A DNA stretch of 64,000 bases, taken from Halobacterium rubrum. Lineage in GTDB: Archaea; Halobacteriota; Halobacteria; Halobacteriales; Halobacteriaceae. The position numbers and the translations under genes were made by a program. The notes beneath the pieces were generated by a model. It did no database searches. It saw nothing but the letters and a program-made list of their open reading frames with translations, and was not told where the DNA came from. Location: the NCBI RefSeq assembly GCF_021729015.1, contig NZ_JAJQQZ010000001.1, positions 434,001 to 498,000 on the forward strand, read 5' to 3'. Positions 46,565 through 60,481 of the stretch are shown one piece after another (positions within the stretch are counted from its first letter, which is position 1; every line of letters begins with the position of its first letter).

Positions 46565-46646
46565 GCCGGGATGGCCGAATGGCAAAGCGCACGCCTGGAA
46601 AGCGTGTCCCCTTACGGGGTTCAGGGTTCAAATCCCTGTCCCGGCG
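46565..46646 (+). tRNA. tRNA-Ser (GGA anticodon)
   Basis: Class II tRNA, 82 nt. Acceptor stem GCCGGGA/TCCCGGC, discriminator G at 46646. Anticodon arm CACGC-CTGGAAA-GCGTG with anticodon GGA at 46597-46599. The long variable arm (TCCCC TTAC GGGG) is as for serine tRNAs, and the T-loop is TTCAAAT. No encoded CCA and no intron. Confidence 0.95.
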
Positions 46647-46664
46647 TTCTCCCCGTACTCGCGC

Positions 46665-46710: not shown

Positions 46711-46730
46711 GACGACGGGATTTGAACCAC
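46711..46730 (-). repeat. Inverted tRNA T-arm-like fragment
   Basis: Read on the minus strand this is GTGGTTCAAATCCCGTCGTC: a T-loop with GTTCAAATC and the start of an acceptor-like stem. It is in the opposite orientation to tRNA-Ser and lacks the rest of a tRNA. Confidence 0.5.
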
Positions 46731-46760
46731 GGCAGACCGAACGCAGTGAGGGCTGGCATC

Positions 46761-46784
46761 GGGTTCAAATCCCTGTCCCGGCGT
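46761..46784 (+). repeat. Displaced copy of the tRNA-Ser 3' end
   Basis: The 24 nt from the T-arm through the acceptor 3' strand, GGGTTCAAATCCCTGTCCCG plus GCGT, match 46624-46647 exactly, 137 bp downstream of the real tRNA end. This looks like an attachment-site duplication (att) from integration at a tRNA gene, with only ~113 bp between copies and no integrase. Confidence 0.65.
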
Positions 46785-46907
46785 AGCTTTTTCCTGCGCT
46801 CACTCGACGGCTTCGGCGCCTCGTTCGCTGGCAAAAAGCTACGCCAAAAAGCCGTCCTCACCCCCGTCCGGGGGTTCGTCGGCCAGCGCGCTTCGCGCGC
46901 TGTGAAT
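46780..46907. repeat. Structured intergenic element, copy A
   Basis: Perfect 13-bp inverted repeat GGCGTAGCTTTTT (46780-46792) and AAAAAGCTACGCC (46833-46845) around a 40-nt loop. Then ACCCCC-GTCC-GGGGGT (46860-46875) and AGCGCGC-TTC-GCGCGCT (46885-46901), followed by GTGAAT. The core 46826-46883 matches copy B (60278-60333) at about 50 of 58 positions by hand alignment. No protein-coding potential is apparent. It begins in the displaced tRNA end. Confidence 0.6.
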
Positions 46908-46981
46908 GCTCCGAGTTCGTTCTCACGTTCGAGCGGCTCGTCTCGTCGCGCTGGTGTTCGCGAACTCGGCGAGCCGCCGGC
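46908..46981. other. Gene-free remainder of the 46647-46981 spacer
   Basis: GC-rich and hairpin-prone (CGAGTTCG / CGAACTCG arms at about 46912-46919 and 46959-46966), with no reading frame or promoter that stands out. It ends at the stop of the convergent lipoprotein gene. Confidence 0.4.
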
Positions 46982-59867: not shown

Positions 59868-60242
59868 GTGCCCGAAGACGGAGCCGGCGCCGGAAACGGC
59901 GACACCGAGGACAGCGACGACTGGCGGACCGCCCTCGCCGACGAGGGCAGCCTCACGCCCGCCATCACGGAACGCATCCTCGACGCCCACGGCGACCGCG
60001 GCCAGCGCGCCATCGAAGCCGCCAGCGAAGGCCGCGTCAAACAGTACAACGACTTCACCGTCGTCGTCGGCCACGGCGACGAGTACATCGTCGAAGCCGG
60101 CTCCTGCAACTGCGAGGACGCCCAGTACAACCTCGGCCCCGACGAGTCCTGCTGGCACGCCCTCGCCGCCGCCATCGCCGACCGCGTCGGCGCCGTCGAC
60201 CACCACGACATGTTCTACAGCGAAGTCCGAGACTTCCTGTAG
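59868..60242 (+). CDS. SWIM zinc-finger protein
   Basis: Protein of 124 residues. The C-terminal SWIM pattern is C-x-C-x(n)-C-x-H (SCNCEDAQYN...ESCWHALAA), which binds zinc and often nucleic acids or proteins. The N-terminal half is acidic and helical (ITERILDAHGDRGQRAIEA). The GTG start fits GCTAAACC about 24-30 bp upstream. Target unknown. It is followed by copy B of the structured element. Confidence 0.85.
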   Translation: MPEDGAGAGNGDTEDSDDWRTALADEGSLTPAITERILDAHGDRGQRAIEAASEGRVKQYNDFTVVVGHGDEYIVEAGSCNCEDAQYNLGPDESCWHALAAAIADRVGAVDHHDMFYSEVRDFL

Positions 60243-60245
60243 TAC

Positions 60246-60365
60246 GTTTTGCTCCGCTCGCGGCGCGGAGCGCCGCTCGCTGGCAAAAGCTACGCTAAAA
60301 GCCGTCGTCACCCCCTGACGGGGGTTCCTCGGCGCGAGCGCTCACTGCGCTCGCGCTCAGTGAAT
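60246..60365. repeat. Structured intergenic element, copy B
   Basis: Starts 4 nt after the SWIM gene. The core 60278-60333 matches copy A. ACCCCC-TGAC-GGGGGT keeps the same 6-bp stem but has a different tetraloop from copy A. A 10-bp perfect hairpin follows (GCGCGAGCGC 60332-60341 / GCGCTCGCGC 60347-60356), then CAGTGAAT. The equivalent of the outer stem is weaker (TTTTGC 60247-60252 with GCAAAA 60283-60288). Confidence 0.6.
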
Positions 60366-60481
60366 CGCGGCGCTCGGGACCACCGCGAGAGCACGCTCTC
60401 GCGAGTCCTCGTTCGCTCCGCTCACGAGGACTTCGGACCACTCGCGCCGCGAATGCTCGCTGTCCATTGTCGAATCCGCAG
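60366..60481. other. GC-rich spacer after element copy B
   Basis: Contains further inverted arms (GCGAGAGCACGCTCTCGC at about 60385-60402, a dyad of GCGAGAGC and GCTCTCGC around AC) but no gene. It ends at the convergent acetyltransferase stop. Both element copies lie between converging genes. Confidence 0.4.

Follow-up and report, generated by a model that had tools for sequence, protein, structure and literature searches.

A four-hairpin repeat family at gene and tRNA ends of haloarchaea, a putative two-way transcription terminator

Archaeal termination is usually described in terms of short T-tracts with little conserved context. In Haloferax volcanii, termination in vivo reached 95% of transcripts with the tract T5C and 59% with a hairpin (PMC7237163), and T-tract (U-tract) terminators have been studied with aCPSF1 (PMC7515710, PMC8716108). 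Palindromic repeats of the REP/BIME type and others with GTAG/CGTC feet are extragenic, occur in many copies, single or in inverted pairs, downstream of genes, and consist of one hairpin (PMC3733652). The PATEs and SMRs of Haloquadratum are non-coding haloarchaeal elements with near-terminal palindromes and nested small insertions (PMC3119063). Bacterial Rho-independent terminators consist, in the sense direction of the gene, of a GC-rich hairpin and a T-run directly behind it.

The repeated, multi-hairpin element family reported here, present in most salt-loving archaea, is previously unlisted, no description of it being found in the open-licence papers searched. It shares with archaeal T-tract terminators a T4 or T5 run shortly past the gene end, the avoidance of divergent promoters (5 of 128 places) and its replacement by plain T-tracts in element-less orthologues. 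Those terminators, however, are short and without conserved surroundings, whereas here the tract lies inside a four-hairpin module of 150–230 bp with tracts on both strands. The likeness to REP/BIME extends to all the traits listed above except the foot and the single hairpin: the element has four, together with a strict stop-codon register and A/T tracts, and no fixed GTAG/CGTC foot was found over 119 copies, in which the outer arm bases vary and covary. As in PATEs, there are hairpins near both ends (H1 and H4), and the ends differ, with no terminal inverted repeats. Unlike PATEs, the element is retained at the ends of orthologous genes, with most of its variation in the hairpin sequences, and gives no evidence of recent mobility; no common flank was seen, and sites were shared in a species-level comparison. 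It resembles PATEs in build, but apparently not in behaviour. Finally, its minus strand has hairpins and then T-tracts, as in Rho-independent terminators, but on the plus strand the T-run precedes H1, and the stem base is built from T- and A-tracts.

The two copies in the window

The window is the whole stretch of 64,000 nucleotides of Halobacterium rubrum DNA that was analyzed. A sequence-only reading of it had proposed two copies of a multi-hairpin intergenic element sharing a core of 56–58 nt. Both were confirmed where it had placed them, with bounds now set at 46783–46910 (copy 1) and 60242–60457 (copy 2). The shared core is real: the top off-diagonal match in a self-BLAST of the whole window was 46803–46889 versus 60257–60341 (81% identity over 89 bp, E 6.6e-11), a conserved 24-mer of the core gave 0 matches across 100 shuffles, and the homology reached beyond the core at both sides. 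The ACCCCC/GGGGGT stem was unbroken in both copies (46860–46875, loop GTCC; 60310–60325, loop TGAC), and the next hairpin differed as described, having 7–8 bp in copy 1 (46884–46902) and 10 bp in copy 2 (60332–60356), with TGAAT after each. The outer 5′ hairpin, H1, which that reading had caught in part, also belongs to the element, and in intact relatives TGAA and ATGCT are separated by a fourth hairpin, H4. This hairpin is lost from copy 1, whose right end was placed at GTGAATGCT by comparing complete relatives. In copy 2, H4 is present with a nested insert, reaching 60457.

Features of the two copies:
46783..46910, plus strand: copy 1 as a whole, an H4-less form starting directly at the duplicated tRNA-Ser 3′ end (genome C1:480783 onwards)
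46783..46845, plus strand: copy 1 H1 (sequence, fold, arm covariation in the family); left arm, GTAGCTTTTTCC from 46783, reading GTAGC-TTTTT with T5 at 46788–46792; right arm AAAAA-GCTACGCC with the first A-tract (A1) at 46833–46837
46846..46850, plus strand: copy 1 second A-tract (A2), T5 on the minus strand
46851..46883, plus strand: copy 1 H2, GCCGTCCTC ACCCCC GTCC GGGGGT TCGTCGGC (sequence and fold)
46884..46902, plus strand: copy 1 H3, CAGCGCGC TTC GCGCGCTG (sequence and fold)
46903..46910, plus strand: copy 1 TGAA fused straight to TGCT, with no H4 (comparison with complete copies)
60242..60457, plus strand: copy 2 as a whole (genome C1:494242-494457)
60242..60294, plus strand: copy 2 H1, left arm GTACGTTTTGC from 60242, running from GTACG-TTTT-GC (T4 at 60247–60250) to GC-AAAA-GCTAC (A1 at 60285–60288)
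60297..60300, plus strand: copy 2 A2, T4 on the minus strand
60301..60333, plus strand: copy 2 H2, GCCGTCGTC ACCCCC TGAC GGGGGT TCCTCGGC (sequence and fold)
60332..60356, plus strand: copy 2 H3 of 10 bp, its foot overlapping the final bases of H2 (sequence and fold)
60361..60457, plus strand: copy 2 TGAA, H4 (60365–60452) and ATGCT (sequence, complete relatives)
about 60382–60434, plus strand: two-hairpin insert nested at the tip of copy 2 H4

The converging neighbours reported for both copies were also confirmed. Copy 1 is flanked by a 3′ end derived from tRNA-Ser and by a CDS on the minus strand, copy 2 by genes for what we take, from their sequences, to be a zinc-finger protein of the SWIM type and a GNAT-like protein. 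Base 1 of copy 2 is the final base of the TAG stop codon (60240–60242) of the SWIM-type gene (59868–60242), a 1-base overlap.

Immediately before copy 1, the tRNA-Ser 3′ end occurs a second time, as a 24-nt duplicate. The last 24 nt of the tRNA-Ser(GGA) 3′-end region (46624–46647) are repeated exactly at 46761–46784, 137 bp downstream, and a long palindrome, GGGATTTGAACC...GGTTCAAATCCC (46717–46773), lies between the two repeats. Comparable tRNA-Ser end duplicates occur in several other Halobacterium species, with or without the element.

Family, fold and covariation

With copy 1 as the query, BLAST gave more copies in the same genome, where the 20-base core (up to 3 mismatches) occurred at 15 places versus 0 for the reversed control. 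A covariance model, R1, was built from 13 simple copies and found 26–27 copies in this genome, those inside the window being the two reported. It matched 25 of 26 Halobacteriaceae genomes, mostly with 10–58 copies each, and 190 of the 243 genomes of the order (~78%), with E-values, rough because the calibration was shortened, down to 1e-28 outside Halobacteriaceae. In the order-wide search 12 candidates were scored per genome, so that copy counts saturate and mean "at least". All 21 positive genomes in an even, phylum-wide sample of 197 fell within the order. Named carriers are Halobacterium sp. KA-4 and CBA1126, Halobacterium litoreum, with 30 copies, and Haloprofundus salinisoli. The copies within the H. 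rubrum genome were diverged, not near-identical. The sequence-only reading had suggested a haloarchaeal repeat family or a small-RNA/terminator class, and this is supported by the confinement of these further copies to haloarchaea, by strong covariation in the larger alignment and by terminator-like sites at gene ends. Ties to gene and tRNA ends, the lack of strand preference in wobble pairs and persistence at orthologous sites make the small-RNA and recently-mobile readings less likely.

Rfam 15 gave only the tRNA in the window, and the best match of a strong copy scored 14.8 bits versus a cut-off of 42. No match was obtained in the phage records searched, and the exact core was absent from viral contigs. 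One 20-mer matched exactly in a Candidatus Atribacteria MAG, but this was dismissed as chance, the rest of the element being absent there. Among the 26 Halobacteriaceae genomes, one Halobacterium genome of 2.4 Mb (G012) had 0 R1 matches. Most sampled genomes of one genus (g11, in family f5 of the order) also had none, and relatives have many; these absences reflect either lineage loss or a form missed by R1.

The element follows the plan xyACC-TTTT-GC, H1, GC-AAAA-GCTy′x′-NNN-AAAA-GC, H2, H3, TGAA, H4, ATGCT, and sequence conservation ends after ATGCT. Over 119 distinct copies, the arm pattern (left xyACC-TTTT-GC, right GC-AAAA-GCTy′x′) was typical, while the outer bases x,y took at least 7 forms (CG 31, GT 27, GC, GG, CA, GA, CT) and were complementary to their partners in 89 copies, some of the remaining 30 being off by one in the register of the script. 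Most copies keep a C·C mismatch within the arm. A2 is unpaired and lies 7–8 nt beyond A1, the A-tracts being 12–13 nt apart. The lengths of the T, A1 and A2 tracts were (4,4,4) in 78 and (5,5,5) in 23 of the 119 copies. The unpaired A2 tracks the paired tracts in length, all three being equal in 101 of the 119. Pairing of the T-tract with A2 instead of A1 was rejected, as the flanking bases showed no covariation, though the tract lengths match. TTTT is scarce in the window (69% GC; 0.04 per 100 nt per strand), and each element has three such tracts.

Covariation was strong in the arms and H4. In the model-guided alignment, which is biased towards its own model, 93.8% of cells pair, two-sided changes occurred in 28 of 28 pairs, and the covariation score was 0.404 versus 0.144 for shuffles and at most 0.08 with partners slid. 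The unguided alignment gave 12 pairs with two-sided changes. H2 and H3 were judged by eye, column-by-column alignment not being possible. Small two-hairpin units resembling tiny mobile palindromes were seen nested between the two A-tracts or in the tip of a hairpin, at about 60382–60434 in the window and at nine other loci; an insert between A1 and A2 is, for example, CGGGAGAGC..GCTCTCCCGAGCCCTGC..GCAGGACGC.

Selection on one RNA strand would be expected to leave G·T in excess of A·C. In the aligned stems both were equally rare (G·T 47 vs A·C 46, of 2603 cells), the tRNAs of the same loci having, for comparison, 27 G·T in 506 pairs, and an alignment-free count of nearly perfect stems gave 5 G·T and 4 A·C. 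The pairing is thus constrained on both strands, as expected from a two-way terminator, from a DNA structure or from a palindrome-correcting mutation process. Since the last of these is possible, covariation alone does not prove that the element acts as RNA; for the arm, blind palindrome correction is made less likely by the conserved C·C mismatch. G·U bias as a guide to the transcribed strand was dropped, no bias being seen, and became evidence for the two-strand constraint.

Gene ends, orthologous sites and inverted pairs

A codon-usage script and ARAGORN were used to call gene ends, the calls being home-made for most loci, in a sample that favours high-scoring copies. On this basis, a same-strand gene or tRNA lay at the left in 104 of 128 element places. 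In 79 of these 104, representing 58 distinct gene ends, the start of the element fell between -2 and +5 nt relative to the stop codon or the 3′ end of the tRNA; roughly one in four of the same-strand elements lies more than 5 nt away. In most copies, about 4–10 nt separate the T4/T5 tract from the preceding stop codon or tRNA end. The register was alike at tRNA genes (0–2 nt at one tRNA-Val and three tRNA-Leu genes), which means that the function must be common to tRNA and mRNA genes. The neighbours of the 128 places, counted after by-eye correction of three gene calls, were converging at 62, in the same direction at 61 and divergent at 5 (P about 1e-7 versus an assumed 20%). That every copy belongs only to convergent genes was rejected, right-hand genes being found in both orientations. 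At four loci, two converging genes have one element each, and every one of these elements directly adjoins the gene it belongs to. Where the left gene is directed away from the element, the element end is often 32–45 nt from the start codon of that gene, presumably where promoter elements of leaderless genes lie.

The end of the SWIM-type gene bears the element in eight genomes, that of the window included, with very different hairpins and tracts of T4/A4/A4 or T5/A5/A5 (mixed in one genome). The 5′ part alone is left in another genome, the site is interrupted by a contig end in one more, and there is no element at this site in G009 and G012. Three genomes of the sister genus have a plain T-tract 9–20 nt past the SWIM-type stop. 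The same mixture was seen at the end of the PCNA gene, with plain T-tracts in four genomes, among them that of the window. In the element-less orthologues of both genes taken together, plain T4/T5 tracts lie 9–23 nt past the stop. At the tRNA-Ser site, the element also stands behind the tRNA-end duplicate in three other genomes. This comparison indicates that the sites are old, that structure is kept while hairpin sequence turns over, and that a T-tract can replace the element.

Facing elements with 27–29 nt between their ATGCT ends were found at no fewer than eight Halobacterium-family loci. The centre between the paired ends showed no sequence conservation, and the halves of one pair differ as much as unrelated copies. 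Two pairs outside the Halobacterium family had spacings of 33 and 78 nt.

Three plasmid copies in Natrialbaceae, one of them in Natronorubrum bangense, occupy unusual contexts, such as between trpE- and trpG-type genes (one copy) and upstream of a PadR regulator gene. They are possibly recent insertions.

Readings of the element

Judged from sequence comparison, the element is probably a haloarchaea-specific, vertically maintained border of transcription units, whose main job would be termination both ways. Transcripts of the left gene or tRNA would meet the T4/T5 tract starting about 4–10 nt past its end and then a stable H1. Transcripts entering from the right would meet H4, H3 and H2, next a pair of T4/T5 tracts spaced by about 12 nt, reading GC-TTTT-N8-TTTT-GC on the minus strand, and finally H1. 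RNA polymerase would stop at the T-tracts, and the hairpins may assist or protect. In head-to-head pairs, the near T-tract could serve both directions, the distal hairpins with the double T-tract acting as a putative fail-safe. Bidirectional termination appears to be the simplest account, fitting mRNA and tRNA ends, the avoidance of divergent promoters, T-tracts on both strands and the replaceability of the element by a T-tract. Against it count the T4 tract, which is weak by published in-vitro standards, the same-strand elements more than 5 nt from the gene end, and the few Natrialbaceae plasmid copies away from gene ends. It also counts against it that four hairpins, the arm C·C mismatch, the conserved TGAA and ATGCT and the 27–29 nt pair spacing are more than a simple terminator requires, the spacing being unexplained by simple termination. 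A two-way gene-end module would be a defined natural substrate for studying how archaeal RNA polymerase, aCPSF1 and RNA structure cooperate, and haloarchaeal genetics would gain candidate bidirectional terminators from it. The complete turnover of near-perfect hairpins at orthologous sites, with pairing kept on both strands, bears on how covariation is read in GC-rich archaea.

A further-reaching proposal, which we put forward only tentatively, is that of a strand-symmetric four-hairpin border module, free in sequence and kept in structure, insulating unit ends in both directions in most haloarchaea, with the inverted pairs and their fixed 27–29 bp centre forming a composite site for a dedicated putative factor.

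It seems rather unlikely that the element is a mobile or formerly mobile palindrome (PATE-, IS605-derived-repeat- or REP/BIME-like) surviving mainly where harmless, at gene ends. Its multiple copies of 150–230 bp, the near-terminal hairpins without terminal inverted repeats, the BIME-like inverted pairs, the Natrialbaceae plasmid copies in odd contexts and the nested small palindromic inserts, known from Haloquadratum PATEs/SMRs (PMC3119063), would all agree with such an origin. However, at 58 distinct gene ends the start falls within a few nt of a stop codon or of the end of a tRNA, and this would not, nor would the fact that no common flanking target sequence was seen, the divergence of copies within the H. 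rubrum genome, the absence of the exact core from viral contigs, and orthologous sites kept across species and genera while the hairpins change.

The position directly after stop codons and the stable predicted folds could also point to a structured 3′-UTR, acting in mRNA stabilization or processing, or in the 3′-UTR-dependent translational control known in haloarchaea, whose 3′-UTRs bear regulatory information (PMC2636863). This is doubtful: the register is identical after mature tRNA 3′ ends, where no UTR exists, and G·T is not favoured over A·C, so that neither RNA strand is privileged.

We give similarly little credence to a border acting at the DNA level, as a cruciform or a binding site for a topoisomerase or nucleoid protein that would insulate transcription units in the manner of the gyrase sites of BIMEs. 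The near-perfect, strand-symmetric stems, the fixed 27–29 nt of the inverted pairs, the conserved unpaired TGAA and ATGCT, the A-tracts 12–13 nt apart and the proximity to seemingly strongly used genes (which we take, from their termini, to be nusA/rps12, thermosome and PCNA) would suit it, but the register is tied to one gene end instead of lying mid-intergenic, and a T-tract occupies the same spot in element-less orthologues. An integron attC-like site, brought to mind by the stop-codon register, was rejected, the flanks being apparently ordinary chromosomal housekeeping genes at shared sites.
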